From NCBI RefSeq assembly GCF_019649055.1, contig NW_026570319.1, positions 1 through 64,000 of the forward strand: DNA of 64,000 bases, in the 5' to 3' direction. The translations under genes were made by a program, and so were the position numbers. Each line of letters opens with the position of its first letter. Position 1 is the first letter of the stretch. Shown here piece after piece: positions 1 to 60,328 of this stretch. The notes under the pieces are model-generated. The model had not been told where the DNA came from. It did no database searches and saw only the letters and a program-made list of their open reading frames with translations. The stretch is from Paramacrobiotus metropolitanus (lineage: Eukaryota > Tardigrada > Eutardigrada > Parachela > Macrobiotidae).

Positions 1-1
1 C

Positions 2-796
2 CATATCCTCCACACGGATCGCGGAAAGACATTTCACCGCAGAAGTACTGAAAAGGTCACCAACGTGTTTAAAATCAAACACACGTTTGGAACAGCGTAC
101 CATCCTGAGGGCCAAGGACAGGTTGAAAGACAGATGCAGACCATCAGCGATGGACTGTCGCAATACCTGAAAGCGGGAAACGAAAGGAAGTTTAACAAAT
201 ATCTTCCATACGTCATATCGGCAATGAACCGTGCAGTACACGCAACGAGGGTACTCAGCATACTATATGCTCCACGGAAGAGAGATGACCATGCCAGAAG
301 ACGTCGTAACAAAGACGAACGTTCCTGACGATTATGGTGCACCAGATGAATGGGTGGAAACCATGAAAAGAAATTTGACCTTTTCAGAAGAAGTGGCGAA
401 GTGCAATATCAAAGATGCATATGAAAAGCATGCAGAAATCTACAACAAGAAGAAGTCAGAACCTGAATTTAAAGTCGGAGATAGAGTCTTAATCAGACTG
501 CCTAAAGATACAAAGCAAGGAAAGAAGGAAAATCAAACTGACTTCAAAAAAACAAATACGACAAAGTGTGGAAGATTCTCAGCTTTCCGAGACCGAACGA
601 AGTCGAGGTCATCGAGCAAGATGCGGTAAAAGAGCCGGACTTACGGGTCGTTTCGGTAGATCGTCTAAAATCGTGGCACCCGCCGTTACCGGTTCAGAAA
701 ATCAAGCTGGAAGGGCAGCTTCGGAATCACCTGAGAAAGGTCATGAAATTGCAGAGCATGGCTCTACTTTCGAACCACGCTCGCGTAACGACATAG
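2..796 (+). pseudogene. Ty3/gypsy-type integrase, C-terminal part, frameshifted
   Basis: This is the end of a retroelement pol gene; integrase joins element cDNA to host DNA. The window starts inside the catalytic core. Frame 2 reads the second catalytic Asp (TDRGKTF, from nt 17) and, exactly 35 residues later, the Glu in GQGQVERQ, so two of the DDE triad are present and the first Asp lies off the left edge. The reading moves to frame 0 near nt 250 (GYSAYYMLHGRE, then KVGDRVLIRL, typical of the integrase tail) and back to frame 2 near nt 550, at a run of seven A, giving WKILSFPRPNEVEV and VVSVDRLKSWHPP, an SH3/chromodomain-like end. The two frame changes mean either a dead copy or assembly indels at homopolymers. 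Family assignment is firm; activity is not. Confidence 0.85.
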
Positions 797-1149
797 CAGA
801 GCGTAGTTGTCAGCATACTTCCGAACCACGCTCTGTACCAGCTATGGCAGAAGAGCCGAAAGAGGCAGAAGAGCCGAAAGAGGCAGAAGAGCCAAAAGAG
901 GCGGAAGAGCCAGGAACGAAAAAGAGAGGAAGAAAGAAGAAAGAGAATAAAGATTTCGAAACACCAGTGACAATGAAGCTGAATCAAGAGGCAGGAGACC
1001 TCGAAGCAGAGCATGGATCTCAAGTGGCGCCTAAGTCAAAGCTTACTCTCGAACCACGTTCTCAAGTAGCAGAGCATGATTCCAAAGATGCCTTCGAACC
1101 ACGCTCTGCCACCAACGGCAAGAATGACCTTCAAGAGCGGAACAGATAA
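568..1149 (+). CDS. unknown acidic/Ser-rich accessory ORF of the retroelement
   Basis: About 190 codons in frame 1 that take over where the integrase tail ends. I do not recognise it. The protein is low complexity: three EEPKEA repeats (18-bp units, 847-912), a basic patch KKRGRKKK, and alternating EHGS and EPRS motifs produced by DNA hairpin cassettes described separately. It probably continues in frame 0 from about nt 1130 (AEQIKAVKEQADQLGQR) to the TAA at 1395, so the stop at 1149 may be another frame break. It belongs to the same + strand unit as the integrase, because spacing is negligible and base composition is the same. Whether it is a separate protein or part of a polyprotein cannot be told. 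Confidence 0.45.
   Translation: MEDSQLSETERSRGHRARCGKRAGLTGRFGRSSKIVAPAVTGSENQAGRAASESPEKGHEIAEHGSTFEPRSRNDIAERSCQHTSEPRSVPAMAEEPKEAEEPKEAEEPKEAEEPGTKKRGRKKKENKDFETPVTMKLNQEAGDLEAEHGSQVAPKSKLTLEPRSQVAEHDSKDAFEPRSATNGKNDLQERNR
751..1109 (+). repeat. hairpin cassettes GCAGAGCATGG ... CCACGCTCTGC
   Basis: Stem-loops whose arms are versions of GCAGAGCRTGG and CCACGCTCTGC, with TTCGAA or TCCGAA just before the right arm. Pairs are seen at 751-785, 796-836, 1008-1061 (long loop) and 1069-1109. A fifth, degenerate copy lies at 6630-6670 in non-coding DNA. In the coding region they give the EHGS/EPRS peptide pattern. Conservation of pairing outside the ORF points to an RNA structure. Confidence 0.65.
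847..912 (+). repeat. 18-bp tandem repeat (EEPKEA)
   Basis: Three and a half units of GCAGAAGAGCCGAAAGAG with small variations, inside the ORF at 568. Confidence 0.85.
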
Positions 1150-1472
1150 AAGCCGTCAAAGAACAAGCCGACCAACTTGGCCAACGGATCGCGAACGAAA
1201 TTGAGAAGCGAAAGGTCAAGAAAATGAAGAAAACTCCGAAGCCGACTCCAGAACAGATTCTGAGAGGAGAAGTCCAAGACGAAGATGAAGCCGACAAAGC
1301 ATTACTTGATCGGATAACTAAAGGACGAAAACAAATAAACCCGAAAATCAGGCTTATAGAGTTTATGATATTAAGACTGGAAGTTGGGACGGCGTAAAGG
1401 TCATCAGAAATAAACCTGCTAATCGGAGTCATTTTCGTTGTCGTAGTAGGTTTGTTTAACGATAAGCTGAGG
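1131..1472 (+). pseudogene. broken coding stretch with one possible membrane segment
   Basis: Frame 0 is open from about 1131 to a TAA at 1395. It encodes a Lys/Glu-rich helix (ANEIEKRKVKKMKK) and DEADKALLDRITKGRK. Past the stop the same frame continues open and encodes a strongly hydrophobic 17-residue run, NLLIGVIFVVVVGLFND, at about 1416-1466, which could be a transmembrane helix. The next long ORF (1474) is in another frame, so the helix may also be an accident of a non-coding linker. No family recognised. Confidence 0.3.
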
Positions 1473-1473
1473 A

Positions 1474-2157
1474 ATGGAAGAGTCAAGGCAGAAGTTATTG
1501 AATCCGGGAACGCCGTCATCGACGAGCGGAACGATTCAGGACCCGGACTTATATGACGATTCAATGAATACGGAGGAACATACGAAGGGGATACGACCCG
1601 TCTACTACGTATCAACAACCCGACGTGGGAATGAGCTCGAACACATGGGGACTTACGGCACGCAGGTCGGGCCCCAAGGACAAATGATGCCGAATCAGAT
1701 GATGCCAAACCAGATGATGCCAAATCAAATGATGCCAAATCAGATGATGCCGAACCAAGGAATGATGGGACAGAATTTCCCATTCCAGCAATTCCCACAG
1801 ATGTACGGCCAAAATATGCCCATGATGAACCAGGGTCAACTGATGCAAGGTCAGTTCGGATATGGAGGAATGGCCCCATTTCCGAACCAGATGCAGGGAT
1901 TCCCAAATCAGATGCAGGGATTCAACCTCAGCAAAGTCAAGGGCAATTTCGAACACCGAAACCGTCAAGAGGTCAACGTTACCCGGGAGACAGACAAAAC
2001 ACACCGCGAAGGGGCGGTCAGTCGTCTGACCCGAGAGCGTCGACGAGTGGCCAGGAACGAGAATGGAGATCCCATCACTCACACCAGTCCGAATCCATTC
2101 GCCAAGATCGACTGGAAGTATTCCGTGGGCAGTATTGAATGCACCCAGATTCAATGA
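1474..2157 (+). CDS. Met/Asn/Gln-rich low-complexity accessory protein
   Basis: A 227-codon ORF in frame 1 starting at ATG 1474. The N-terminal 70 residues are acidic and hydrophilic. Residues about 70-95 are five tandem MMPNQ units (15-bp DNA repeats, 1684-1758), followed by a Met/Gln/Phe/Gly-rich stretch with two FPNQMQG copies, so the middle is prion-like and likely disordered. The C-terminal part is basic. No catalytic motif is visible and I do not recognise a family. It lies between the possible membrane segment and the triplicated-domain ORF, on the same strand. Low-complexity regions of this type can drive condensation of RNA-binding proteins, but a role here is inference only. Confidence 0.5.
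   Translation: MEESRQKLLNPGTPSSTSGTIQDPDLYDDSMNTEEHTKGIRPVYYVSTTRRGNELEHMGTYGTQVGPQGQMMPNQMMPNQMMPNQMMPNQMMPNQGMMGQNFPFQQFPQMYGQNMPMMNQGQLMQGQFGYGGMAPFPNQMQGFPNQMQGFNLSKVKGNFEHRNRQEVNVTRETDKTHREGAVSRLTRERRRVARNENGDPITHTSPNPFAKIDWKYSVGSIECTQIQ
1684..1758 (+). repeat. 15-bp tandem repeat (MMPNQ x5)
   Basis: Five consecutive 15-nt units of the form ATGATGCCAAAYCAR, in frame with the ORF at 1474, with only third-position or single-base differences between units. Confidence 0.9.
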
Positions 2158-2195
2158 CCCGATCACAGAAACAGATCCACAGTACAACATTATAA

Positions 2196-4943
2196 TGGAT
2201 CCAAAGGTCACTCACAGAGGAAGAAAAGAAGGCTGTAGCGGAGTTTAATGAAAATGCCGCGAGTTCGTCCAGCTGCATAACGATATCAACGATAAATCAA
2301 GACCAGTACAGGACGGCCCGAAGAACTCACAAGATAACCAGGGGAACCCACCTCCACATGAAACTGGATAAACACGAGGCGGAAGAGTTGCGAAAAGAAA
2401 GAGGTGTTGAAATCAGAACACTGAAGAACAGTAATCCAGTGTTGCGCAACAGGGAATGGCCGAGCGCAGTAAAGACGATACTGATCTTCATGAACCTCAT
2501 TCCCCGGAACCAAAAGAAGAAGAACAGGAGAGAGGAGTCAAAACTCCAGCTGAGGAAAGCCCTACTAAGGAAGAGCATACGGCCAAGAACGAGGAATGAC
2601 CCGTTTCAGCCTCCGAGTGATCCGTTAGTAACTCGAGAACGAGAACTGTTGAGAGAAAGGGATAAACTCGACAGAGAAATCATGGAATTGAGGTCTCGTA
2701 CGGCATCGGTAGTTCAATCAGGATCATCGCGTACCAGCCCGGCGAGAGAAACTAAACCGAAACTGAAATATGAGAAAGATTTTCTCCCGGTGGAGGAAGG
2801 TCACACCGGTCAAGAAGAAAAACCGAAAGGTCATCCTGGCGTGAGCACGCGAAGGGGCGCAGCTCGAGAAACGAAATGTAGATCGCACACCAGAGTTTTC
2901 CGGCTTAAAGATAAAACGGAAGGAGTAGTCAGCGCATTCCTAGTCCATAGAGACACTGATCAACCAATTCCATCAATGGGGGAAGGAGCTGACCGAGCCG
3001 CATATCAGCTGATGTGCAAAGAAGCCAGCGATGCCGCGGAAGCAGCGATTGGTGAACTCATTAAGTCAGAACGGAATAACCCGACCATGATAGGAAGAAT
3101 CCTGAGAGACCTGTTGAGAGAAACAGCATTCAAAGAGAAGGCGAATATCATGGTCACAATTGATGCGAAGGGTAGAATGGAGAAACAACTCTATAACCCG
3201 CAAGGCGAAAAGATTGATATGCTCTCGCATGGAGCATATCCGGCGTCAGGTGCGAAGGGGCACGAGGCGGAAGAAGAAGGAGAATGGGAAGATGTAGAAG
3301 ATGAAGAAAAACCGCCATACAGAGAGACGGTGTGCAGATGTCTAAAGGTCAACTATCACATGGCAGACGGAGACGAAGGTTATGTCCACGGCTTTATTAT
3401 CGATCCGACAACATACATGCCGATCCCCACAGCAGGAACGAATGCGACTCCTGAAGAAGTGGAATGGCAAACACAGAAGTCGTATAGTGACCTTAATAAG
3501 ATACTCAATCTCCTGCCAGAGGACCAGCGGAATGACACTGCTGCGAATATACAAGCAGTGATGAGTATCCTCAGGCACAGGGCCGAAGAAGACCGAGCCT
3601 ATTTGGTAGTCTTTTGGAAAGATGACGAAGGAAAGTGGAAATCACTCTTCGACTCCAAGGGCAAAGGGCTCTATTTTCCGGAAAACTTCCAATTTAATCC
3701 GACGGCGGAAGAACACAATAAATATTACTCTGGCGACCCGCCGGCCCAAGCCGAAGCCATGGAGACTCAAGAAGAAGTCGATAGAGGATCACCGTGTCGA
3801 CGCATCGATTATAAGTTTATGAACCAAGAAGGAAGAGAAGGAATCCTCAGAATCGAAGTGGTCGATCCTCAGACGGGACAGATAGTGTCAAACGCAGGCT
3901 TCACTCCAGAAGAGGAAGAAGAGGAAACATCAAAACTTATGCAAGAGGTGGAGCAAGTACTGCAGGTCCTGCCACAAGAGGAAGAGCGCGAAGAATTCGA
4001 AGCCATAACCGAAGTATTGGTTAACGTCATGATGCCAAGAGCACGCCAGGACGGAGCATACATGCGCTTGACCCATATTGACCCTTTCCATGGAGAAGTG
4101 TACAAGCAGCTTTACACTTCGAGAGGCGAGACGCTGACTAAATTGTCGGGTGCGAAAAAGGTCAAGAAACCGGCTGAGAAGGGTCAGCCTGAACCAGTTA
4201 AAGCAGAAGAGAAGGGTCACAAAGAAAAAGAAGAAACGAAAAGTCAAGAGACTAAGGAAAGACCGCAAGAACAGGAGGTCAAGAAAGAAGAGCATCTGAC
4301 TCCTGGGAAGAAAGGTGAAGAACGAAAGAAAGAAGATCAGAAGAAGAAAAGGAAACCAGTAAGGGTCACGGCACGAGAAGGTAGCGCCGGTGAAACTTTC
4401 GTTAAACAACCGAAATTACTGGGAGTAATGGAAAAGAAAAGAGAGAAACCCGAATCGGACTCTGAGCCAGAACAATTGGCTATCAACGCAAAAGCAGGGT
4501 CGTCACAAGCCGAGACCGACGAAGAGAAGGACAAAGGTCAATCACGCAAGGTGATGGAGGAAGCGATGACGATGCAGCCGATCTATGCGTCGACGATGAA
4601 AGAACGCAAGGACAAGGCTGATAAAGAGAAGAAGAAAAGGGATACTTCTGTCGAATCGGCGAAATCGGAAGTCAGCGTCACATCGTCGAAGTCGTCAATA
4701 AAAGAGAAAGATACAAGAAAGAAAGGTCAGAGAGACACAAGAAAATCTGACCCCAGCTTGGCAGATTATATGGATGCACAGAAGAAACCAAAGGTCACTG
4801 TCAAGAACAGTCTTATCGGAAGAGTTGACGCGGCTGACATCGTAAATTGGAGACCTGTCGAAGGGACAGTGAATTGGATTATACGGATGACGAATACGAT
4901 GACCGATTCTTCGTCTGTGAGTCAAACGAACAAACAACTATAG
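2196..4943 (+). CDS. large accessory protein with a triplicated unknown domain
   Basis: Frame 0 is open from about 2196 and has an ATG at 2358 (861 codons from there). I do not recognise it. From the ATG, residues about 172-295, 323-440 and 477-600 look like three diverged copies of one 110-120 residue domain. Each begins with a Cys-Arg pair, then a Gly-containing strand, a VD/IDP turn with PIP or equivalent, an acidic helix, a Leu-rich helix pair, and ends with an LY or LF strand followed by G-x-x-L. The C-terminal 260 residues are Lys/Glu-rich, low-complexity and probably disordered. Eight AAAGGTCA octamers fall inside the ORF in different frames. The next frame takes over at about 4850, so the printed C-terminus may be a frameshift artefact. 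Confidence 0.55.
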   Translation, partial: WIQRSLTEEEKKAVAEFNENAASSSSCITISTINQDQYRTARRTHKITRGTHLHMKLDKHEAEELRKERGVEIRTLKNSNPVLRNREWPSAVKTILIFMNLIPRNQKKKNRREESKLQLRKALLRKSIRPRTRNDPFQPPSDPLVTRERELLRERDKLDREIMELRSRTASVVQSGSSRTSPARETKPKLKYEKDFLPVEEGHTGQEEKPKGHPGVSTRRGAARETKCRSHTRVFRLKDKTEGVVSAFLVHRDTDQPIPSMGEGADRAAYQLMCKEASDAAEAAIGELIKSERNNPTMIGRILRDLLRETAFKEKANIMVTIDAKGRMEKQLYNPQGEKIDMLSHGAYPASGAKGHEAEEEGEWEDVEDEEKPPYRETVCRCLKVNYHMADGDEGYVHGFIIDPTTYMPIPTAGTNATPEEVEWQTQKSYSDLNKILNLLPEDQRNDTAANIQAVMSILRHRAEEDRAYLVVFWKDDEGKWKSLFDSKGKGLYFPENFQFNPTAEEHNKYYSGDPPAQAEAMETQEEVDRGSPCRRIDYKFMNQEGREGILRIEVVDPQTGQIVSNAGFTPEEEEEETSKLMQEVEQVLQVLPQEEEREEFEAITEVLVNVMMPRARQDGAYMRLTHIDPFHGEVYKQLYTSRGETLTKLSGAKKVKKPAEKGQPEPVKAEEKGHKEKEETKSQETKERPQEQEVKKEEHLTPGKKGEERKKEDQKKKRKPVRVTAREGSAGETFVKQPKLLGVMEKKREKPESDSEPEQLAINAKAGSSQAETDEEKDKGQSRKVMEEAMTMQPIYASTMKERKDKADKEKKKRDTSVESAKSEVSVTSSKSSIKEKDTRKKGQRDTRKSDPSLADYMDAQKKPKVTVKNSLIGRVDAADIVNWRPVEGTVNWIIRMTNTMTDSSSVSQTNKQL

Positions 4944-5353
4944 AAGAAATTGACGAAATCCTCATTGGAGCGACAGCCAATTGGGGAAAAGCGACGAGGT
5001 CAGTCACGTCAAAATTCAGAAAGGATGTCAAGGCGTATTGCGAGGAGACAAATAAAAGACTGCCGCAGAGCAAGTACAACGCCGTTCTGGAATACGCAAG
5101 GAGCACAGGAAAAGTCCTTCAGAAACATCCGAAATATGGCTCCAAAGCGAAGCTTACATCACTGGGAACAATAATGAACGGAAGTTGGCTACAGCAAACG
5201 CAGATATCCGAGAACGGATTGAACGTGCCATCATCGGGATGTGTAGCCCGATGGGTACGACGAAACACCGTATGGCACAGTTCATCAACGGAGTTTGGAG
5301 CAAAGAGAAGGGAAATGCTTCAATCATCGAAAGGTCACTCGGAAAAGCGTTAA
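4847..5353 (+). CDS. winged-helix-like segment 1 (frame 2)
   Basis: The acidic stretch DSELDYTDDEYDDRFF in this frame is more protein-like than the overlapping end of the previous ORF, so the true reading probably shifts from frame 0 to frame 2 near 4850. Residues encoded at about 4935-5165 (IEEIDEILIGATANWG ... YARSTGKVLQKHP ... KAKLTSLG) fit a three-helix plus wing pattern like a winged-helix DNA-binding domain. After about 5180 the plausible reading moves to frame 1. This is a fold guess from hydrophobic spacing and the G-K-V-L turn before the wing; no specific family is claimed. Confidence 0.35.
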   Translation: METCRRDSELDYTDDEYDDRFFVCESNEQTTIEEIDEILIGATANWGKATRSVTSKFRKDVKAYCEETNKRLPQSKYNAVLEYARSTGKVLQKHPKYGSKAKLTSLGTIMNGSWLQQTQISENGLNVPSSGCVARWVRRNTVWHSSSTEFGAKRREMLQSSKGHSEKR

Positions 5354-6339
5354 CACAGATGGTAGCGGAAAACAAGCTGCACACCACAAACCCTCACAAA
5401 GGCGTGACCATCAGATACAGTTCATTGAACGCTGTACCAGAAGAGTTGAGACAATACAAGAAGGAAGAGATGAGCGAAGATACGACCATTATATTGGATC
5501 CCAGACTCGATGCGGAATGTCCCATCTTGAGTCAAATTAAATTAGACAGTGAAAAGGCAGCAAATTCATCGAAGAAAGAGAAAGAAGAGCAAATAGAGGA
5601 ATCAATGGTCGTTGAAGAAAATGTCGTTGAAGAAAAAGAGGCAGAAACGGTAGAGAAGGGTGAACTGAAACTGCATGCGCCGAAATCGGCTGAAGAGGCT
5701 ATTGCGTTGGTGGGACCACCGAAACCGATGTCGGTACAGGAAGCACTTGCCGCCGTACGAAGTCAAAGGGCAAGTGGATCCAGTTCAGCAGTGGATACCC
5801 AAAAGATCCACCGATCGACAACAGCACTGACATCGTTAAAGGCAGCACACGAACAAGCGACGCAAGGAAAAAACGACGTTAAAGGTCATGCTGCGGAAGA
5901 AACAGCTAAAGGTCATCAGACTTCAGCGCAAAGTGGAGTCGAGGAGAAAGGTCATCCGAGCTCAAGTCATGGAAAGATGGGGCAGCCTACTGGATCGCAA
6001 CCGCCGGTAGAAGCTACACAGCAAGTGCAGTCCCCATCGCAGAAAGAGGAGACGGACGACGAGCTAAACGAGAGTAACGTCCCGTGGATGACAATTTACG
6101 CTGCGATCGGTGCAGCCCCGTCGAGAGAAATGGATAAGACGGATATTTCAAAAAGCAGTCGGCGACGCCGGAGTCAGCAGGACACAAGTCAACAAGCTCA
6201 TAAAAAAGAGCGTATAAAGAAGGAAAGATCGGTGTACGATACACGAACACGAATCAACCGAACTACTACATTCCTCCGGCGGAAGAACAACGAAAGCAGA
6301 GACCGAAACCAGGTCCCCAGGCTTGGAAGGACGCTTTGA
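5185..6339 (+). CDS. winged-helix-like segment 2 plus charged linker (frame 1)
   Basis: 384 codons. The N-terminal 80 residues (RERIERAIIGMCSPMG ... AQFINGVW ... LGKALTQMVAENKLHTT ... GVTIRYSSL) resemble a winged helix of the linker-histone H15 type: helix, loop, helix, third helix ending in a G/N-K-L turn, then a hairpin. A long Lys/Glu/Ser-rich linker follows, containing three closely spaced AAAGGTCA octamers (5881, 5908, 5947), each read as KGH here. The last 100 residues start a third similar domain (VPWMTIYAAIGAAPSREM), but the frame slips at the A-run 6150-6154. Assignment as DNA- or RNA-binding is inference. Confidence 0.45.
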   Translation: MATANADIRERIERAIIGMCSPMGTTKHRMAQFINGVWSKEKGNASIIERSLGKALTQMVAENKLHTTNPHKGVTIRYSSLNAVPEELRQYKKEEMSEDTTIILDPRLDAECPILSQIKLDSEKAANSSKKEKEEQIEESMVVEENVVEEKEAETVEKGELKLHAPKSAEEAIALVGPPKPMSVQEALAAVRSQRASGSSSAVDTQKIHRSTTALTSLKAAHEQATQGKNDVKGHAAEETAKGHQTSAQSGVEEKGHPSSSHGKMGQPTGSQPPVEATQQVQSPSQKEETDDELNESNVPWMTIYAAIGAAPSREMDKTDISKSSRRRRSQQDTSQQAHKKERIKKERSVYDTRTRINRTTTFLRRKNNESRDRNQVPRLGRTL

Positions 6340-6554
6340 CTCAAGATGCCATGCAGAACATAGGCGGGACTAACGGGTTCACCGCAGAAGACCTCTCCAA
6401 TTACATGGCAGTTCAGTATGATTCCGGCCAAGAAAATATGAACGGGGATCGATTCAAGATCCAGAACGCGTTGGACAGTTTGGTCAAAGACGGAACCATC
6501 AGAACATGGAAGAAGGATGGAGTCGACCAATACGACTGGATCGCGAAAGCGTAA
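6075..6554 (+). pseudogene. winged-helix-like segments 3 and 4, split over three frames
   Basis: Following frame 1 to about 6148, frame 2 to about 6203 and frame 0 to the stop at 6552-6554 gives one coherent product. Domain 3 has DKTDI, then KAVGDAGVSRTQVNKLIKK, then GKIGVRY and a QPNYYIPP end. The N-x-x-x-I helix plus a Pro-x-aromatic wing recalls Z-alpha-type winged helices. Domain 4 reads AWKDALTQDAMQNIGG, then DRFKIQNALDSLVKDG, then TIRTWKK and QYDWIAK, another helix-turn-wing pattern. Both frame changes fall at A-runs (6150-6154 and 6202-6207). The domain reading is mine from pattern alone and needs a profile search. Confidence 0.4.
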
Positions 6555-6913
6555 AACGGAAGAACATGTGTGGGAGGAAGGTCCACCACACAAAAAGAAG
6601 AATCAGAATCAGAAAAGAGAAAGAAATGAGCAGACCGTAGTTCTCAAATTACTTTCGAACCACACTCTGCAAAAAGAGTTGAATTAGCGAAGGGGCTATT
6701 TTACTTAGCGAATGGGCTAAGATGAGAAAGGTCACCATACAGTTGAGAATGGTTCAGTTAAAGAAGGATGACAAAGGTCACCATGAAACAGCGAGAAAGT
6801 CTCAGCTCAGCACTGCATAGCCTAGTTACCATAGGCGTAAAAATAGGCGTTGAGAAGGGTAACGTAAAGGTCATAGCATTATAATGTTTGAGATTGCAGG
6901 CTGAGACATCAAA
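6555..6913 (+). other. non-coding gap with motifs inside the retroelement
   Basis: About 360 bases with no credible ORF. They contain a degenerate stem-loop (6630-6670) matching the hairpin cassettes at 751-1109, a near-direct repeat AGCGAAGGGGCTA / AGCGAATGGGCTA (about 6687-6720), and three AAAGGTCA octamers (6727, 6773, 6866). Octamers in a non-coding gap show the motif is not just a peptide repeat. Confidence 0.6.
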
Positions 6914-7210
6914 ATGACTGAACGGAGCCAATCCAACCAGAACGCGGCGAAAAAGGGACAGCGACCAGCTGTAAAAAAGGTCACGGGAGACCCTTTGACG
7001 AATTACAACGAGGACTGCCCGGACTGTAAACGAAACAACATCCTATCGAACGAACGTTTCCCATGCTGGACTTGCGTGGTGGCAGTACCGAACCAAGCAG
7101 TGGTGGTACCAGAAGAGGCGAGAAGGGTAACTCGATGTGTTCCGGCATTTGGTTACGGGAGACACATGGATGAAACTGTCACCAGAAGACCGGATGATTT
7201 TGGAAGATAA
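6914..7210 (+). CDS. small zinc-ribbon-like N-terminus of the next accessory ORF
   Basis: ATG at 6914, frame 2. A basic start (AAKKGQRPAVKKVTG) is followed by CPDCKRNN ... FPCWTC, two CxxC pairs 15 residues apart, which could bind one zinc. Reading then probably slips to frame 0 near 7137, joining the Arg/Glu-rich protein downstream. No family recognised beyond a zinc-ribbon-like motif. Confidence 0.4.
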   Translation: MTERSQSNQNAAKKGQRPAVKKVTGDPLTNYNEDCPDCKRNNILSNERFPCWTCVVAVPNQAVVVPEEARRVTRCVPAFGYGRHMDETVTRRPDDFGR

Positions 7211-8459
7211 GTACAGAATGTGGGTCGGACGTAGACCGGGTTGGGATATCACCCTTGAACCTCCGAAAACACCAGAAGCGGATGCGTTCAGAAAGAAGTT
7301 TGAAGAAGACACGATGAGAATGGTACAGGAAAAGCGCGAGGCAGAGCGAAAGCGGCTAGAAGAAAAGGAAAAAGCTGCGGCAGAGAAGGGTTTAGCCGAA
7401 GCAGCTAAAGGTCACGCACCTACCCCATTTGCAATATTGAAGAAACAAGATGAAGGAGAAGCAGCTGTAATCAGACAGTCGCTGATACAGCAGATTGACA
7501 TCATCTTGCAAGATCCACTCGCGGTATCGAAAGAGGAATACAAGATATTCCTGGACGAAAAGGTCAACCTAACGAAAGGAAACAGACCATCCCAGGTTAT
7601 CAAAATCGCGATCGAAGAACGAATCGACAGGATGAGAAATTTCCGAAAACGGGAGAAAGATGTGGTTGAGGCCCTTCGGAACTTCAAGAAAGAGGAGTTC
7701 AAACGCCCAAAATCACCTCAAAGAGATGATCGCAACCGCGGCTATGAAAGGTCGTCAGACCGCTCCCGAGAAAGGTCATGGGACAGACATCATAACGACC
7801 GATACAGTGGATACGCGAGAGATACGCGTACGTCGGAGCAAAAGAGAAGGGATGAAGAACGTATCCGACGTGAAAAAGAACAAAGAGAAAAGCGCCGCCA
7901 AGAAGAAGCGGAAGAAAAGCGCTTGGCGGAGGAATACAGGAAAATCAACGAAACCTGTAATAGGCAGCAGGAGAAGGAACGGGCTGCTAAGGAAACGCAA
8001 AATCGCGATTTACAGAATCGAGAAGGAAGAAGTGAAGGCTCGAGTAAATCAACATCCTCAAAGGGGCCATATGATCAAGAGTGGGTCCAGGATAACCTGA
8101 ACATGGCTGATTATGAGTTTGGAGACAAATCCTACAACAGCAAAAGGTCATCCAGCTCAGAAAGCCACCGCACGCCTAAGAGCCCGCGCAGAATGCAGTC
8201 AGTAGTCCATTCTGTTTGTTCAACGTTCAAGTCAGCCGAGAAACAACCGGAAAAGCAATTGGACGAGGTCATGGAATGCAGCCCGTCATCCTCGAATGTC
8301 ATTGAAGTTCACGGAGACGAGGATATGCGACCGTCAAGACGAAACATCATCTTCGATCTTGAGCATCAGCTTACAAGCGCGGAGATGGCGAGTAATGCAC
8401 CGCCAGAATCAGATTCAGAGAAGGGCGACCAGAAAGGTCAATCAAAGGTCACCGCCTGA
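7137..8459 (+). CDS. Arg/Glu-rich coiled-coil and RD/RS-repeat protein
   Basis: 440 codons in frame 0. The first 70 residues are mixed (LSPEDRMILEDKYRMWVG) and could be folded. Residues about 60-85 form a Lys/Glu helix; about 95-180 are amphipathic helices. The middle (about 200-300) is dense in Arg, Asp and Glu with RS/RD pairs such as SSDRSRERSWDR, typical of RNA-binding, phosphorylated low-complexity segments. The C-terminal part is Ser-rich. It ends KGQSKVTA, where two AAAGGTCA octamers lie only 3 nt apart (8433 and 8444). The next ORF begins 37 nt after the stop at its first good ATG. A nucleic-acid-binding role is inference from composition. Confidence 0.5.
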   Translation: MFRHLVTGDTWMKLSPEDRMILEDKYRMWVGRRPGWDITLEPPKTPEADAFRKKFEEDTMRMVQEKREAERKRLEEKEKAAAEKGLAEAAKGHAPTPFAILKKQDEGEAAVIRQSLIQQIDIILQDPLAVSKEEYKIFLDEKVNLTKGNRPSQVIKIAIEERIDRMRNFRKREKDVVEALRNFKKEEFKRPKSPQRDDRNRGYERSSDRSRERSWDRHHNDRYSGYARDTRTSEQKRRDEERIRREKEQREKRRQEEAEEKRLAEEYRKINETCNRQQEKERAAKETQNRDLQNREGRSEGSSKSTSSKGPYDQEWVQDNLNMADYEFGDKSYNSKRSSSSESHRTPKSPRRMQSVVHSVCSTFKSAEKQPEKQLDEVMECSPSSSNVIEVHGDEDMRPSRRNIIFDLEHQLTSAEMASNAPPESDSEKGDQKGQSKVTA

Positions 8460-9609
8460 GGAGACATTCCTCCAAACCATCGAGCTGGTATATGAAATGA
8501 ACGACATCATGGAGCAAACGAACGAGATCTGCCGTTCGGTGGGCATCGCGCCAGATAATAAGGATGAATTCGACAAAGTTTATTGGCTTCTCATGAACTT
8601 GCGCCAGGTCATCAACGACTCGGGATACGCGAAAGAGTACGAGTATGGCCAATGGGAAGACCTGATCATTACGCAAGAATCGGCGAATCTTCATTACTTC
8701 CCGACGAGAGAATGCGGCCTTGTCAGTTTGATCGACCTGAGTCTCTTGGAAACACCGTTGGACACACCGGATCCAACAGGAATGACACAGTTCCAGTATA
8801 GAGACATCAAGGAAAGACGTCTGCACGTGGCACAATTTGTGTTACGCCATGTAAATCCGGCGTTGAGACTCCTCGCAGGAAGGGCTGCGTTAGGATTGTT
8901 GGTCAAACCAGATTCTCCGCCTGATCACCGCGCCACGATTCAGAAGATTTTTGCAGCAAGGCTCGGCCATTATGAATCGCATCACCAGCTGCGAAAGAGC
9001 GCTCAAAGAGGTATAGAGATACCGCCAGCACTGACCGCGCAAGTTATAAAGCTGGGAATGCCTGTTAAGAACTTTAACTCCTCGGAAACGGCCAAGAGGC
9101 AGCTGAAGGACGTCCAGAGAGCAATGAATTTCGACGAAAGTCTGAGACGTCAAGCGAAAATGCATGCCCACCGATGTGCGGAAAGAATCAGAATCACGAT
9201 GGGTACGAGATTCATCCAGCCATCCGACTTCGTCTATGATTTCATCCAAGAAATCAGTGTAAATAGAAGCAGCTACCGTCCAGAGCTTGCGAGACAGCCG
9301 CAGGAAAATGAAATGAAACGAAGAGGACGAAGAAACCAACAGCTGCATTTGGACTATGTCGAATTGTGCAAAAGGTCACGGGATAATCCATACGATGAAG
9401 GATTAAAAGCGCGAATGGTCGACGCTCGAGATCATCTGATCCGTATTCAGCGCAGACGTGACCGAAATCGGCACAGTGGTGCTAGCAGCCGGAGCGAAGG
9501 AGACGAGCTGCCTGAGAGGGAAAAGGAACCTCGAGATCGAACGTCTGATCAGAATGAAAAACAAAGACGTTTCGATCGGAACCGCGACAATGGTTCCAAT
9601 GATCAGTGA
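8296..9609 (+). CDS. unknown helical C-terminal accessory protein
   Basis: Frame 1 is open from 8296, but the convincing start is ATG 8497 (MNDIMEQ), 37 nt after the stop of the previous ORF, or the frame is reached by slippage near 8450. The product from 8497 is about 370 residues, well folded in appearance and mostly helical: WLLMNLRQVI, LISLIDLSLLETPLDTPD and RLLAGRAALGLLVKP are regular amphipathic helices. A basic Arg-rich tail follows (about the last 100 residues). No zinc knuckle, protease or polymerase motif is seen, and I do not recognise it. It is the last ORF of the element; its stop at 9607-9609 is followed at once by the first TGACCTTT octamer (9610). Confidence 0.55.
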   Translation: MSLKFTETRICDRQDETSSSILSISLQARRWRVMHRQNQIQRRATRKVNQRSPPEETFLQTIELVYEMNDIMEQTNEICRSVGIAPDNKDEFDKVYWLLMNLRQVINDSGYAKEYEYGQWEDLIITQESANLHYFPTRECGLVSLIDLSLLETPLDTPDPTGMTQFQYRDIKERRLHVAQFVLRHVNPALRLLAGRAALGLLVKPDSPPDHRATIQKIFAARLGHYESHHQLRKSAQRGIEIPPALTAQVIKLGMPVKNFNSSETAKRQLKDVQRAMNFDESLRRQAKMHAHRCAERIRITMGTRFIQPSDFVYDFIQEISVNRSSYRPELARQPQENEMKRRGRRNQQLHLDYVELCKRSRDNPYDEGLKARMVDARDHLIRIQRRRDRNRHSGASSRSEGDELPEREKEPRDRTSDQNEKQRRFDRNRDNGSNDQ

Positions 9610-10577
9610 TGACCTTTAGGGCATCGCTGATGTGCTAGTTACGGCCATCAGTCGGCAGCACGAGAATGGTATTGAAGGTACAGTATTAGGGCGAAGGAGA
9701 CGTAACTTTTTGAACTGTCATACCGTTCGTGTTTTGTTGTTTTCAGAATTTTGTTGCAGGGGATCAAGGTGATCTGCAGTATGGGGAGTTACGGAGGTCA
9801 TCCGGCCCTCGAAGCAGGAAGAGTAACGGCGTTAACCGGCCTTCCTCATTACATTTAAACGTCACTTCTAGAGTGTAGTTGCGGCCTACTTAGTCGGCAC
9901 ACTCTTAAGGAATGTCAGAAGCCACAAGGGTGAAAAAGAGAAAGAGTTCAAGAAAATAGGGTAAAACTTTCAGATGTTGAGGTTACGGCGATAACCGGCC
10001 TCAGAAGAAGAGGAGTTACGGCGTTAACCGGCCCTCGAACCTGGTGGAGGAAAAGAAGGAAAGTGCGCGTCAATTAGCACTAAAAGAAAGGAAAGGATGT
10101 GCGACAGAAGAAAATGGTTGAAAAGATGGATGACCTTTATCAGGGAGGCAAGCAGAATTGCTTGAAAGCCAAAATCGGCTAAGTCCTCCATGACCTTTAA
10201 TATGGAACTTATGACAGAAATGGATGACCTTTTGGGTTCGTCACCTCCCAATTGAGTCGCACATCAGACGAGAAAGGATGACCTTTGAGAACTTCACTGC
10301 TCAAGAGAGTCATCAAGAAAAAGAGAATGACCTTACCAGGGAGGAAGCATTAAGCTTGTCTTTCAAGACGTCCCTCCATGTCCAAGAGGAAGAATCTCAT
10401 TTTGACAGAAGTCGTACTTTGATACGCAATTATTCCAAAGATGAAGAAGCAGTATTCAGAAGTCGTACTTGATACGCACCTATTCCTACAAGCGGATCTC
10501 ATTTGTGATTAAAAAGATTGCTCAAAAGAGCGGAATGGATCAAAGCGGATTACGGTTGACAGGACCCAGTGACCTTT
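9610..10577 (+). repeat. six TGACCTTT octamers (motif inverted)
   Basis: Exact TGACCTTT starts at 9610, 10131, 10191, 10225, 10279 and 10570, with no AAAGGTCA in this stretch. A near match TGACCTTA lies at 10328. This is the reverse complement of the octamer spread through the upstream ORFs. The switch happens at the stop codon of the last ORF. Confidence 0.9.
10406..10487 (+). repeat. imperfect 30-bp direct repeat
   Basis: Two copies of AGAAGTCGTACTT(T)GATACGC followed by a TATTCC end, separated by about 20 bases, in the 3' region of the large retroelement. Confidence 0.75.
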
Positions 10578-10616
10578 ACGAGTCGGAGGATCCTAGTCGT
10601 TTTGATAATGAATTCT

Positions 10617-11150
10617 GTTGATATTTTTTACTGTTTTTACTTTTGTTCCGAGATCTCTTTATTCACACATGTAATTGGAATTTGTGATGTTAAAGGAGAT
10701 TAAATCTCGATGTTTTATTAATCGCACAGACGAGCCGTCAAGGATCCCAAGGAATTGACGTGGATTCTGCTTCGACGGAGCTCAGCCTCCCTCCCAGAGG
10801 CATGTGAGCGCAGGCGTACATGCGTACACCCTCGCTTTGGCAGTCTGTTGTGTTTTGCTGCACGCCCGCCTTACGCGAGGCGGAAGATGTTGTTCTGCAC
10901 GCACCCGCACTGTGTGGCGGCTACGTGCACATTTTCCACGCTTGCTGCAGTCAGCAATGCGGAGTTGTCCACGAGGAAATTCTTACGAATTTAGTCTGGT
11001 TATAAATTCCTAGCAGTCACGCCATTTCTCGCTTTCTGTAGCGTAGGCGCTTTTATAGCACTGCCAGGCTTTTTGGTAGGCAGAATTCCGTCAATTCTGA
11101 TCCTACGCGTGAACCTTCATCAGGTCCACGCTCATATAGTGAAATACAGT
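10617..11150 (+). other. possible 3' LTR of the large retroelement (uncertain)
   Basis: A G+C-richer block follows the 3' untranslated region and contains a TATA-like box (TATAAA at 11001) with a TTTTATAG shortly after. This is what an LTR promoter would look like, but the matching 5' LTR lies left of the window, so ends, length and target duplication cannot be shown. Confidence 0.25.
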
Positions 11151-20705: not shown

Positions 20706-22902
20706 TTATTCTACAGTGTCTGTCGGGCTGGGATTAGCGATTCTTCCAATGAACATAGGAAAGTCACCAGCGTTGTCCCAGATGAGCAGCAGAAAGGGTC
20801 GATTGGCTTCGAATGATGGAAAATAGTTGCACGTGTAGAATGGTCGCATCATTGTGACAGTTGCTGCCGTAATTCCATGTTCGTCGACATCTAAAAATTT
20901 AAGTTTCGTTGAAGCACCAGCATGCTCAACATGACGATGCATTGGTCCAGTAATTTAAATGTAATAGGTATCTGCTGCTGCGGTGTCTGCATCCAGAAAC
21001 TACAGCAACGGTAGCGGTACCGTGTTACGTATGCACAGAAACTGGCAACACATAGAGAGCACACGCACGTAAATCACACTCCCTGTGGTGCAGTCTCCGC
21101 TGTTCACCGGATGGAGAAAAGCTCCTGCGCTTAAGCATCTGTGAGGTGTTTCGAACTATTGTAAAAAAGTGTAGCGCTTTTTTAATAATGGCGGTCAGGG
21201 TGGTATTTACAGACATACCTAGTTTTGCATACAAATTGTCTGCAGACGTCTAAAACTGTCTACAGTGGAGTTGACAGTCGGAAATAAAAAAAATAAAATC
21301 TCAGACAATATCTACAGAGGGTGCCATTGTGGTGGAAATTTATCGTTACCACACGAAGAATGTAATCGTTTCAATTGATTACCAGGGGCTATTTTGGTAC
21401 AAAAAGAGCCGTATATTATATCTTTGGCGTAAAAGTATCTGTGACTTCGCCACACGGATTGGTGTACTCTGTATGTACCGCAAATAACGCTATCCGGCAC
21501 TGAGCGTGACTGCCAATCCACAGTGCCACACAGCTTTGTTTTGCTGTGCAGATTAGTTGTATTCGACATTTTGCGAAAGAAACAAACAAATAAGAAACAA
21601 ACAAACAGGGGAAATCAAGTAAAAAAATATGATAATCAAAAGTCTAAAATAAACACGATACTGCAAAATAACCTTGGAATTACTTAAAAATAAACTTAAA
21701 AATAACTAAGGGAAAAGGAAATAATAACCTGAAGCAAACTACGGTTATGATGCATCTCTGCTGACCGCTTACAATGCCGAGTTATTTTTGATGTCGACAG
21801 ATTACAGTATATGTTTACATTATTGTCACCAAAAGCCGTAAATAACCTGAGCATGGTTACGTGTTAGGATGCATATTATGCTATACAATAGATGCTTGTT
21901 ATCGGGAATGCACTTACCAAACATAGTATTTTGCGCAAAGTCACCAACTTTTGTCAGTGCCTTATTTCCGAACATTTTCGACATGTTGGTCGTGGGTAGG
22001 TACATTTCCGTTAGACCCAATGCTTTGGTACAAGGTATCAAATCGGTATTGGTGGAAATGCGAAATTTCGGCAAGGCAACTTTAATTCTAGAAATGCTGC
22101 TTTTCTTCCGCCATTCCTCCAGCACACTAGCAGTTTCCGCTATACGGCTTTCCAGTCGCGCAAGGCTGTCGGGACTGTCTTCCGGCAATAAGAACATGAC
22201 ACTATAGTTTTTTCCGCTGATGTCGAGTATCAACACTTTGGGATCGCGTGGCGATAACTCGTGTTTCTCCTCGTCAACATTGTACGAGCGGAAGTTCTCC
22301 TTCTCCGAGTTGAGAAAAGGGATGAACAATCTCCTGCCGTCCGCACAATAAAAATCTCTGTTGAACGTGGACAGCGGTTCAAACGGAATGTCCCAAATTC
22401 CGGAAAAGTTGATCGTCGATAGCAAAATTAAAGCGCTTTTCTTAACTTGGTCTAACTGCAACTGCGGCAAAATATCGCTAACAGTCCACGGCGAATGAAG
22501 ATGCAGAAAGTTATTAACAGCATCGATAGCTTGTTGCGGCTCCGTTGCGAAAGGGACGCCGACGAAGTGAATGTCCTGGCAGCTCTTCAATGCATCGCGG
22601 TAGGCTTCCGTCAAGGTAACGCGCGCGTCGTAAAACATTGCGTTCGCCTGGACAAAACCGGTGGGTTTTTTCGCGAACAACGTCTCACATAATTTTTGTA
22701 CTGATCGGCCATCCGGGCATAATAGCCGCAGAAGGTTCGCGTGAATTTCACCCTCCGTGCCAGGTAAGAAGCAGGCCAAAACGCTTTCGATGGAATACGG
22801 GCAAATGATGAGATTGGAAGTTGATGGGACCGTATCAGCAGCGGCTTTGTACAGCGCAGCAGCAAACGCCAGTTCACAGTTCAGTTTACTTTTCCTATTC
22901 AT
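20706..22902 (-). CDS. serpin, two exons
   Basis: Serine/cysteine-protease-inhibitor-fold protein. Exon 1 is 22902-21918 and exon 2 is 20890-20706, with a 1,027-bp intron: donor G|GTAAGT and acceptor TTTTTAG|AT. Exon lengths 985 and 185 give 389 residues, a normal serpin length. Exon 1 carries the core (NLIICPYSIESVLACF, ALILLSTINFSGIWD, VALPKFRIS). Exon 2 carries the hinge DEHGITAATVT, the variable loop and the C-terminal signature FEANRPFLLLIWD ... PMFIGRIANP. No signal peptide is visible, so it is probably intracellular, and the stop just upstream of the ATG supports this start. Counting from hinge Glu as P17 puts P1 at or near Thr-Cys. P14 is Ile where inhibitory serpins usually have a small residue, so inhibitory activity is uncertain. 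Splicing across the loop is inferred but fits phase and homology exactly. Confidence 0.92.
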
Positions 22903-42658: not shown

Positions 42659-43744
42659 TGTCGTGTAATAGATAAAAAGTAGACGTTGCACAATGCTTGT
42701 CTTTATCCTCACTGCCGACCACGACACAATCGGTAAAGAGCGACTCTTATCTCAAACTGTTGGGAAGAAGTAGTAGGATGGCAATTAGAAGTAGAAGATC
42801 AGGAACAAGTCAGGAACTGCTGGAACTCAGGAATCCCTGCTGCAAACACAATACACAAAGATACGAGTATACTTACCTGACCTCACGCTAGATGTTAGCA
42901 GAAGCGGTAAGAGAAACTATCCATCAACTCGGCACTACGAGGCATGAAGATCGAAGAGGAGAACAAGACCAAAGGTCACGGGATGCAAGTGGGAGCTAGT
43001 GGGTAACCTGTTACGTCACGAGACTATCCGAGAATTAGTTATATTTTATTGCATAATAACAAAATCACAGCGGAGCTGCTAAGAAATACAACATCGGGCT
43101 CCAATCATTCCCGATTAGCCAATCTAAACGCTAAAAAAACGTCTTCGTTGTCTCGCATCCGAGAATGATAATGCACGTCGACGAAGTAGAGGGAAAAACC
43201 CCTGACATAAGTGAAAGGTCACTAAGAGGTCAGTTAGCAAGATTCCTCACTGCGATACGAGAAAACCAGAGCAAGAAGTCTGAAGTTAATCAGGTCGAGA
43301 ACAAGTCTCTACCTTTGTTGGAATGATAACTCGTGACATTTGTGTGGGCGACGAGCGCCTTATATAGTCTTGGGCACGCGCAGGTGCGACTCTTCGTACG
43401 CGCAGGCACGGTTCTGAGAACAATAGGGATTTAGAAACTAGCCAATACTCTACGATCACTGACACGTGGACTAATCACAGATAGCATCAACACAGCATTA
43501 ACTAATCAGAGAAAAGGGTCAGCTCGTACTCGAGAACAATAGGTAAAGCTACGTCATGGACACGCGGTCACGTCGAAATGGCAAGTCGCGGTCAAAGTTC
43601 TCTGCTGGACATTTCTTAGAAGCATCTACTCGGACTCGGGGTCATGACTCAAGTAGTCGTTGTAGTAAAGCCTAAGCCTGTACTTCGGGGTCAAAGTAGT
43701 AGAGTAGTACCGATGTGGACGGGCTAGTACTCCCGTACACGTCA
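42659..43744 (-). repeat. 3' LTR of the outer element
   Basis: 1,086 bp. In element sense it has a TATA box (CTATATAAGG, around 43361-43371), a consensus 5' splice donor TCAGGTAAGTATA (42868-42880) and two TGACCTTT octamers (complement of 42971 and 43214). It is longer than its partner mainly by a 131-bp segment bounded by ATCCGAGAAT (43026 and 43157). Confidence 0.93.
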
Positions 43745-43757
43745 CCCCCGCAAACGT
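43745..43757 (-). other. polypurine tract of the outer element
   Basis: In sense, GTTTGCGGGGG directly precedes the 3' LTR, a G-rich plus-strand primer tract. The same word is repeated inside gag (see findings). Confidence 0.7.
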
Positions 43758-44079
43758 AATTTCGCTGCATCGTAGTGGAACAAAAGTGGAACATCGTGGA
43801 ACGACGTGAAACGAAGAGAAATGCGAACATTGGGACATAGGAAAAAGTAACATCTCCATCCGCAATCAGAGTGCGACGCTTCATCCAGCACATCCAGCAA
43901 CATCCCAAGTTGCAACATACAAAGTACAACCAGTTACCATTAAGCAACGCTCACATACGAAAATATACTCGTGTTATCACATTACTGTTAAACTGGATAT
44001 ATTGAGCCACTACACTACAATTTTCGATTTTCACGACGCTTCAATCTGAAACACTAAGCAACGTAATAAGAACAACAGC
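43758..44079. other. 3' non-coding remnant of the outer element
   Basis: Between the pol remnant stop and the polypurine tract. No integrase core or other gene is seen. Confidence 0.6.
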
Positions 44080-44692
44080 TCAACTTTTGTAACTTAAGAC
44101 ATACCGCATGTTATTCTTCTTCCTCAACCGCGTGCAATTTGACACTCCACACTCTTCCTCGAACTCGTTTACTTCGTTTTCCATATCTGGCCAATAGTAC
44201 ATCTTCACACCATACAAGTATTGGAACGTGGATATATACTCGTCAGTTTTCGTATGCACAAGGCGGTGATGCACTGATTCCATTAATCTTTTACGCCACT
44301 GATAGGGAATGACAATGCGTCCTTCTCTTTGGTTAGCGGGTTTATGATAGAAGTAGAACTGATCAGTAGTCATGCAATTAATTTCCGCACGCACAAAATC
44401 AGTAGAAGTACTCGCGTTTTTCGGATTCCTACATAATCTATACCACTTTTGCGTGTCCGAGCATTCACACTGCTGATTTTTCCAGAAATAAGGATCGTCA
44501 ACTTGTTCATCAGTTAAAGCAACCTTACGATCTTCTTTAGCTACACGTGGCCTAGTCCAACCGGGCTTACCAAAATTTTTCTCCGCTTCTATTTGACGAA
44601 CGATTTCCATATAGCCTCCAAGCTGCTGTTCTTCCCTGACATCTGAGTCACCTTTGCTTACAATATCGCTGCTATTTTCACTAATACGCTCA
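44080..44692 (-). pseudogene. outer element pol remnant (integrase zinc-binding region)
   Basis: Open from the nested-element insertion point to a stop at 44080. The end reads HHRLVHTKTDEY ... MYYWPDMENEV ... ECGVSNC, the His-His-Cys-Cys zinc-binding region that precedes the integrase core in Ty3/gypsy elements. It is in the same frame as gag-protease once the nested element is removed, separated only by the stop at 52951. Reverse transcriptase and RNase H before it and the catalytic core after it are both missing, so the element lost most of pol before the nested insertion. Confidence 0.75.
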
Positions 44693-44696
44693 ATAC

Positions 44697-45032
44697 TAAA
44701 ACGAGACTCTCAAGTCTCTCAACGAGGTTTGCTGGAAAGCGGCCCTCGAGACCAATACGACTGTTCTGTGCTGGTGGTAATGCACGGGATGAGGAAAGGT
44801 CATACACAAGCACAATCACACACTGCCACAAGGCTCACAACTTTAATTCATAAAATCACACGTTAGCAAATTAATTGCCGTCACGTAAGACGGAGAAACT
44901 CAATTGAATTTCATTAGAATTTCCATCTCAACACCGCATCATTAAACAGCCTGTTAATCAGTGATTACCGGTAATCACTACAAACTTCCACCCGACGGTG
45001 GCTTACACACTTCCGGTGCTTTACACGCTTTA
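44697..45032 (-). repeat. 3' LTR of the nested gypsy element
   Basis: 336 bp, ends TAAA...TTTA. Contains AAAGGTCA on + (44795), i.e. TGACCTTT in sense, and the palindrome GTGATTACCGGTAATCAC. Confidence 0.95.
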
Positions 45033-45044
45033 CCCCCCTCTTTA
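45033..45044 (-). other. polypurine tract of the nested element
   Basis: Sense TAAAGAGGGGGG immediately before the 3' LTR: the plus-strand primer. Confidence 0.88.
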
Positions 45045-52555: not shown

Positions 52556-52558
52556 GAA

Positions 52559-52573
52559 GACCCAGGAGCGCCA
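52559..52573 (-). other. primer binding site of the nested element
   Basis: Sense TGGCGCTCCTGGGTC directly adjoins the 5' LTR, complementary to a tRNA ending GACCCAGGAGCGCCA. The tRNA identity is not assigned. Confidence 0.8.
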
Positions 52574-60308: not shown

Positions 60309-60328
60309 CGAACCTGAGTTGGGCGCCA
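60309..60328 (-). other. primer binding site of the outer element
   Basis: Directly next to the 5' LTR, element sense reads TGGCGCCCAACTCAGG. This is the start of the classic tRNA-Lys(1,2)-type primer site, so reverse transcription is probably primed by a Lys tRNA ending TTGGGCGCCA. Confidence 0.85.

Follow-up and report, generated by a model that had tools for sequence, protein, structure and literature searches.

Why should one exact octamer, AAAGGTCA, recur throughout a mobile element in a tardigrade genome and then turn round where the last open reading frame ends? The question arises from a 64,000-nucleotide stretch of the Paramacrobiotus metropolitanus genome (the window), in which a preliminary description had placed a giant retroelement carrying the word.

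The element and its copies of the word

On sequence evidence, the DNA at the start of the window is the 3' 11.1 kb of an approximately 25-kb Ty3/gypsy-type LTR retroelement (Table 1). This copy lacks its 5' part because the window begins at the contig start, which cuts the element; it does not start inside the window, as had been supposed. A near-identical copy (C1) measures 24.9 kb from LTR to LTR, with direct LTRs of 341 bp that are 99.4% identical and 24.5 kb apart; in another copy (C103) the LTR match spans 159 columns only. Relatives show the Ty3/gypsy order of protease, reverse transcriptase, RNase H, and integrase, with Pfam matches to gag-asp_proteas (C103), RVT_1, RT_RNaseH, Integrase_H2C2, and rve. 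Of these pol domains the window retains the integrase end only, where the rve match (positions 2-229, E 0.00068) lies under the Pfam curated cut-off that intact relatives clear well; a Pfam scan gave no integrase match in 231-626. The integrase and accessory frames of the window copy are broken, their open frames being interrupted. No Pfam gag match was found in the ORFs scanned, which excluded 2.8 kb of C1, and gag may exceed Pfam's reach. The conserved domain of the last ORF has no Pfam family over cut-off; used as a query, it gave 109 matches in its own genome.

Table 1. Features of the retroelement copy in the window. Coordinates of the 26 body sites, which span 52..9378, are site starts.
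Feature	Position	Strand	Remarks
3' part of giant Ty3/gypsy-type LTR retroelement	1..11134	+	damaged copy; 98-99% match to C1 copy pieces
Integrase end	2..626	+	frame change at 231; second frame assigned by eye only
AAAGGTCA body sites, first 13 of 26	52, 736, 1211, 1396, 2203, 2826, 3344, 4157, 4533, 4722, 4790, 5330, 5881	+	exact count
AAAGGTCA body sites, last 13 of 26	5908, 5947, 6727, 6773, 6866, 6976, 7407, 7559, 7771, 8143, 8433, 8444, 9371	+	exact count
Lone inverted body copy, integrase region	376..383	-	
Conserved domain of last ORF	8452..9606	+	query used to find family copies
Non-coding trailer, last ORF to 3' LTR	9610..10802	+	
TGACCTTT adjoining stop codon on its 3' side	9610..9617	-	shared by families A2 and B; absent here from C
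Array of six covarying hairpins	9630..10045	+	cores start 9641, 9791, 9826, 9881, 9985, 10018
Trailer site	10131..10138	-	family C: nearby site, opposite orientation
Trailer site	10191..10198	-	common to A, A2, B, C
Trailer site	10225..10232	-	
Trailer site	10279..10286	-	
Trailer site	10570..10577	-	common to A, A2, B, C
3' LTR	10803..11134	+	from TGTGAGCG to CTCA, both boundaries placed by eye; zero copies of AAAGGTCA

The counts given in the preliminary description were exact: 26 copies on the + strand (52-9378), one on the - strand (376), and, in 9610-10577, six on the - strand and none on the +. The orientation switch at the end of the last ORF is equally real, with the stop codon at 9607-9609 and the first inverted copy beginning at 9610, and the word is indeed read in all three frames (7, 4, and 4 times in the long open frames of the window). 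Its chance expectation of 0.15 was too low, a trinucleotide model giving about 0.9 on this A-rich strand (26 seen versus 0.94). A giant element carrying the word stands; restriction of the word to that element does not, as 18 more copies occur in window positions 11138-64000, where 1.9 are expected.

The planarian element Burro is similar in having a gypsy-type polymerase, an internal region of up to ~25 kb, and a large accessory coding capacity (PMC6431247, in the portion available). The tardigrade element differs in its short (~340 bp) LTRs; Pfam scans of it found none of the Burro accessory domains, and the Burro text cited makes no mention of a dispersed word.

Maintenance of the word across the family

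The word is a family trait: lineages with just 38-42% identity in the last protein each have about 90 sites per element. No full-length relative without it came to light, since every relative retrieved complete or nearly so contains it. Nor do codon-preserving shuffles approach the observed counts. The long open frames of the window hold 15 sites, compared with 2.4 in shuffles (the largest of 500 had 7). Among six sets of sequences, the + orientation is enriched in all six and the - orientation in the four that have at least seven - sites; relative to this null, - is more enriched than + (in the C1 copy, 51 versus 6.1 on + and 12 versus 0.31 on -).

The enrichment is close to exact. Three family bodies contain the word 199 times on + (6.8 expected) and 35 times on - (0.44 expected), whereas the 24 one-mismatch words summed occur 108 times versus ~87 and 30 times versus ~11, a small enrichment of 1.2x and 2.8x, respectively, and of 1.0x outside the element. 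Exact and one-mismatch words stand in a ratio of 1.73; among the 400 commonest octamers, the median ratio is 0.12. Site density in element bodies is 3.5-4.1 per kb.

The word is also conserved beyond its surroundings. In a sample of 16 chosen loci, 50 of 70 sites are retained at 79-83% nucleotide identity (5 loci; ~13 expected) and 136 of 147 at 92.5-99% (11 loci; ~99 expected). Between the pol regions of families A and C, 8 of 15 ungapped sites are identical, two of them on -, where 8-mers of like local protein identity would give 1.0. The shuffle deficit, the persistence of sites at ~80% identity, and the few one-mismatch words indicate that nucleic acid, not peptide, is what matters to selection or maintenance, as the preliminary description had argued for selection or amplification. 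Peptide selection is rejected by the occurrence of sites in three frames and in non-coding DNA, and composition alone by shuffles and trinucleotide expectations that both fall far under the observed counts.

A candidate duplex DNA site

With about 90 copies per element, kept while their surroundings change, and a surplus genome-wide as well, the word probably marks sites for a host protein. On balance we favor the reading of AAAGGTCA as a candidate double-stranded DNA site of one tardigrade nuclear protein, most likely an NR4A-type monomer-binding receptor. A nuclear-receptor half-site had earlier been set aside as not needing one strand; it is now the better reading, preferred over a strand-specific RNA role, because the body needs no strand preference. 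Body sites number 275 on + and 44 on -, local base composition predicts 24 on -, and there is no + excess; two-mismatch words show no different ratio (P 0.22), and runs tests for orientation domains in the body were not significant in any of three families. These figures, together with the stronger enrichment of - over the codon null, tell against the strand-specific RNA role first given to body sites. Equal genome-wide strand counts of the word are uninformative on strand preference, since elements lie in both directions.

The octamer is identical to the NBRE, the site bound by NR4A (NGFI-B/Nur77) monomers (PMC4777543, in the part accessible), and an NR4A-like gene encoding the A-box SLKGRRGRLP lies in the host genome at C45:296815-298439. 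Three exon-like matches at this locus reach 83, 76, and 67%, the last reading VVRTDSLKGRRGRLPTKPK. Other host receptor loci match at 31-67%, some scoring higher because their matches are not split, and, given 63 exon-level zf-C4 matches in the genome, the reader of the word need not be NR4A. As fits an NBRE, usable either way round, exact AAAGGTCA is enriched in both orientations, the leader and trailer being one-sided. NBREs are scattered regulatory sites; here, unlike them, there are ~90 per element, mostly in coding sequence, with a genome-wide surplus of the exact word. No factor is known to us that works through ~80 sites within coding sequence.

Regular or phased spacing was rejected: gaps look random (CV 1.06-1.18), and close pairs (distance under 24) are fewer than expected (8 versus 20). 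Dimer sites of the NurRE-like everted kind were rejected, with 63 pairs within 30 bp genome-wide against ~83 for random placement of this many sites; a reversed-pattern control has 23, and the commonest everted pair among the matches listed, with 7 bases between, matches a pair in this element family.

Between the 5' LTR and the first ORF, four leaders hold 8, 10, 11, and 5 sites (5-11 sites per 0.3-0.46 kb) in a ~30/40-bp degenerate tandem array. Mobile elements carry host-factor sites in their ends. The Drosophila gypsy insulator, where a 340-bp stretch of 5' untranslated region holds 12 Su(Hw) sites, is likewise a tandem homotypic array in the leader of a Ty3/gypsy element (PMC2374998, in the section available). 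The tardigrade element differs in its site, in its presumed factor, and in having sites through body and trailer. Under the duplex-site reading, the lineage would have accumulated the site about 90 times per 25 kb. Leader array and trailer sites would probably be promoter, enhancer, or insulator modules, and body sites, which come and go in both orientations, would probably add binding along the provirus or cDNA; open chromatin, nuclear import of cDNA, or soaking up of the factor are purposes that may be proposed for them. A nuclear protein should then prefer a AAAGGTCA duplex over CAAGGTCA or TAAGGTCA, and duplex affinity for AAAGGTCA, its base-1 variants, and AAAGGTCAG should follow their in-genome rank order.

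Other points weigh against this reading: a symmetric site does not call for ends that are so one-sided (- at 57 of the 58 leader and trailer sites), the exactness is sharper than expected of a transcription factor, and arbitrary host stretches hold few copies (0, 1, 1, and 2 in four 10-kb stretches; total 4 versus ~1.2 expected, P 0.03), what is left of the host surplus being contributed by nuclear-receptor loci and by the window, where other transposons lie.

Alternative readers of the word

The genome as a whole contains 42,562 exact copies, compared with 19,908 for the three words differing only in base 1, a surplus of roughly 36,000 over the average of those variants. In 107.5 kb outside the element, the exact word occurs 26 times versus 3.5 expected and one-mismatch words 90 times versus 90.1, with no surplus. 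A fairly unlikely but broader possibility is that AAAGGTCA is a genome-wide exact address word read by one near-intolerant factor, and that the retroelement wins by saturation, its provirus or cDNA being favored (opened, imported, or repaired) anywhere. Unlikely, too, is a word of the HIP1, Chi, or uptake-word sort, read by a host process such as repair, replication, recombination, or modification, with which the retroelement saturated itself. Like cyanobacterial HIP1, one exact octamer is far over chance genome-wide (PMC4390886, in the text available), near-misses are not over-represented, and coding sequence carries sites in all three frames. Unlike HIP1, which is palindromic and bacterial, the tardigrade word is not palindromic and is concentrated in a mobile element: element bodies exceed the genome mean (0.25 per kb) ~14-16 times, odd for a genome-keeping word, and in 54.7 kb of host DNA the word ranks only 39th among octamers.

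A function in RNA, in which an RNA-binding protein recognizes the body's sense AAAGGUCA, or AAAGGUCA pairs with UGACCUUU of leader and trailer, so as to compact or package the 25-kb RNA, seems to us quite unlikely. The inversion on which it was first based is genuine: leader sites are inverted in 34 of 34 cases and trailer sites in 23 of 24, with ~10 of the 58 expected by composition to be -, which makes the body and end sets complementary. Much of this one-sidedness, however, goes back to tandem duplication and inheritance, and the shared leader orientation, arising in a tandem array, is not independent evidence; in the trailer, a + site in family C lies near a place with a - site in family A. 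The - body sites exceed composition, two - sites are conserved between families, and host DNA outside the element also has more copies of the word than expected. Flanking bases fit pairing on one side only. C follows 129 of 234 body sites (G follows 4) and could pair with the G before 30 of 34 leader sites, but A follows 26 of 34 leader sites, so pairing wants T before body sites, and T is there in only 28 of 234. Read along the word itself, the base following it is C in 30 of 34 sites of the four leaders and G in none, despite their opposite orientation and non-coding DNA, a point in favor of the duplex-site reading. The trailer does contain genuine RNA structure, and a piece of ~300 nt folds better than shuffles in family C (z -2.77) but not in family A (z -1.24). 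The covarying hairpin array (Table 1) is a matter separate from the word; the window contains no known RNA families and no tRNA genes. A U1/5'-splice-site mimic, considered only, is not fitted by the fixed C after GT.

That an element-encoded DNA-binding protein reads the word is improbable. Accessory proteins shared by families A and C are rich in charged residues and include three winged-helix-like stretches, recognized by eye; in six pieces scanned at E up to 10, no Pfam family of winged helices or of other DNA-binding domains was matched, one piece compared with solved structures gave weak Arc-repressor matches only (best E 0.0073), and the surplus of the word extends outside the element. 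A mutational or gene-conversion process that writes the word without selection, akin to the biased-repair ratchet proposed for HIP1 (PMC4390886, in the text available), is very improbable, as sites stay at fixed places across diverged families and the element lineage holds 3-4 per kb against the few copies in arbitrary host stretches.

In the literature collection covered, searches for AAAGGTCA together with tardigrade found no report, and together with retrotransposon nothing that appeared related. In this family one exact site is maintained about 90 times over, mostly in protein-coding sequence, in several diverged lineages and beyond codon constraint. The use of dispersed sites by a 25-kb element becomes testable, and the question is raised of why an animal genome holds a surplus of one exact octamer, a word that is itself a ready probe for the tardigrade DNA-binding repertoire.

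The retroelement and its octamers

A copy near-identical to the element that the window enters spans 24.9 kb on contig C1 and is flanked by 341-bp direct repeats (at 2478093 and 2502949) that are 99.4% identical to each other. Its long frame encodes RT and RNase H, with integrase in the frame after; a relative on contig C103 additionally has an aspartyl protease. The last ORF has 109 matches in the 169.8-Mb genome (whose contig C99 begins with the 64 kb of the window), 29 of them at 63–100% identity, including several pieces of single copies, and 80 at 38–47%; its 11 protein relatives are all annotated as Paramacrobiotus metropolitanus. We name the lineages A (window and C1), A2 (C97, minus strand), B (C221), and C (C103), with a further C-like element on the C97 plus strand. 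Features of the window are collected in the table. No winged-helix Pfam match was found, even at E 10, in the scanned accessory pieces (window 6219-6551 not among these).

Features of the window (coordinates in nucleotides unless given in kb)
Feature	Position	Remarks
Final 11.1 kb of element	start of window to 11134	3' LTR at 10803-11134
Short TTCGAACCAC(GC) repeats	769-1110	accessory region
Accessory protein	2358-4943	seemingly ~3 copies of a diverged module (by eye)
Winged-helix-like stretches (by eye)	5185-5520, 6219-6551	in accessory proteins; also family loci L041, L042:1-630
Hairpin array	9630-10045	outer stems covarying; also trailers of L019, L024, L042
Serpin gene	21826-22902	minus strand
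Two nested LTR elements	42659-61275	direct repeats taken as LTRs
LTR-like repeats, one element	~42.7-43.7/60.3-61.3 kb	direct repeats
LTR-like repeats, other element	~44.7-45.0/52.6-52.9 kb	direct repeats

The preliminary description had the octamer AAAGGTCA running plus-oriented through the coding body and inverted after the last ORF; its counts were exact on recount, and the pattern it reported is genuine and indeed stronger than claimed. The C1 copy has 90 sites over the stretches counted (2.8 kb of the copy lies outside these). The leader has 8, all inverted; the body has 62 in plus orientation and 14 inverted; the trailer has 6, again all inverted. The C103 region, with 91 sites, has the same layout, so that the 5' end mirrors the pattern described for the 3' end. 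The copy at window 11588 is outside the element.

Codon-preserving shuffles of open frames (500 for each of six sets) gave far lower counts (observed versus shuffled, +/-: window, 15/0 versus 2.4/0.0; C1, 51/12 versus 6.1/0.31; C103, 61/9 versus 5.6/0.31; C97 plus, 25/7 versus 2.4/0.23; C97 minus, 26/1 versus 2.7/0.02; C221, 55/11 versus 8.0/0.52). The shuffles rule out a chance origin and, together with the occurrence of the word in all three reading frames, a peptide-level one.

The word is nearly exact. Pooled over three bodies, it occurs 199 times on the plus strand and 35 times inverted (6.8 and 0.44 expected), and all 24 one-mismatch words together occur 108 and 30 times (~87 and ~11 expected); the exact/one-mismatch ratio of 1.73 is the highest among the 400 commonest octamers (median 0.12). 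The base 3' of the word is mostly C, both in the bodies (n=234: C 129, T 53, A 48, G 4) and in four leaders (n=34: C 30, T 2, A 2).

Orientation and conservation of the sites

The bodies are A-rich (A 34–35%, T 17–18%), and AAAGGTCA is therefore the orientation favoured by composition. Among 319 body sites, some counted twice where the window and C1 overlap, 44 are inverted versus 24 predicted from local composition. Plus/minus ratios in the three bodies are 4.4, 8.3, and 5.5 to 1 for the exact word and 2.4 to 5.0 to 1 for near-miss words, a pooled difference that is not significant (P 0.22 for two-mismatch and 0.12 for one-mismatch words), and a search of the bodies for orientation domains found none. 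Composition, near-miss ratios, and the domain test thus leave the body without a clear plus preference, and the strand-specific RNA role once proposed for its sites is unsupported.

Leader sites (34 of 34 inverted, 4.8 expected) and trailer sites (23 of 24, 5.1 expected) are oriented against composition. The former lie within a degenerate ~30- and ~40-bp tandem array, its octamer constant and its spacers drifting, and several of the latter are homologous across families, so this one-sidedness represents few independent events. Close to the family A site at 10131, family C carries one of opposite orientation.

A hairpin array with a conserved UUACGG...CCGG core and variable outer stem lies upstream of most trailer octamers; as a candidate RNA signal it is preferable to the octamer. 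In 28 modules from four families, the mean helix was 4.68 with own arms versus 3.46 with swapped arms (0 of 20,000 permutations, a P that is optimistic because the modules are related), an advantage also seen within A (P 0.025) and within C (P 0.049); helices of 4 bp or more formed in 26 of the 28, versus 48% of swapped pairs. An Rfam search of the window matched no family.

Sixteen family loci were aligned to window 6001-11137, with L023, L024, and the partial L037 excluded. Five loci at 79–83% nucleotide identity retain 50 of 70 sites (~13 expected from all 8-mers) and 11 at 92.5–99% retain 136 of 147 (~99 expected), figures to be read in light of the common ancestry of the copies. The pol regions of A and C have 68% nucleotide identity; of their 15 ungapped sites, 8 are identical, versus 1.0 for control 8-mers matched for local protein identity. 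In the last ORF, A shares 6 of 8 sites with A2 (0.7 expected), 4 of 6 with B (0.4), and 1 of 8 with C (0.06; P 0.06). The remaining sites turn over between families; in pol, 5 of 24 unshared sites stand opposite a one-mismatch word. Retention and turnover together indicate that single sites are maintained, and that density is also maintained despite site gain and loss.

The word in the host genome and its candidate reader

Genome-wide, AAAGGTCA has 42,562 copies, elements included, versus 15,522 for the reversed word; the three words differing in base 1 total 19,908, placing the exact word ~36,000 above their average. AAAGGTCAG is under-used here also (4,042 of 42,562, or 9.5%, versus 15.6% for the reversed control). 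A tandem repeat (G000:C1:2537724-2538368) has AAAGGTCAG every ~91 bp, with eight copies among those listed.

Outside the element, the window holds 18 copies versus 1.9 expected, and the word is the top octamer there, simple repeats and one C-rich word aside. Ten of the 18 fall, by position, within the two nested LTR elements, both of which have AAAGGTCA inside their repeats. Of two further copies, the one at 24073 falls inside a Myb/SANT-like ORF (weak Pfam match) and the one at 27388 inside a DDE_Tnp_4 transposase ORF; this is apparently a Harbinger-type DNA transposon. Four arbitrary 10-kb stretches contain 4 copies (P 0.03) and five nuclear-receptor loci 4 more; these nine host stretches (54.7 kb) thus have 8 versus 1.6 expected, an octamer rank of 39. 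One-mismatch words are not enriched in the host stretches and rest of the window pooled (90 versus 90.1).

AAAGGTCA is the NBRE, the site for NR4A receptor monomers (PMC4777543). At exon level, zf-C4 has 63 matches in the genome; one locus has three exon-like matches to the NR4A domain (83, 76, and 67%, to an approximate query sequence) and encodes the A-box SLKGRRGRLP. A mostly-C 3' base is as in nuclear-receptor monomer motifs, and everted site pairs are not favoured, as for a monomer site. As judged from sequence, the pattern is consistent with a candidate DNA-binding host receptor. We retain as an alternative to a receptor an exact word of the HIP1 kind, since it is unusual for transcription factors to be so exact. 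The best explanation is a DNA-level word, putatively read by a host factor.
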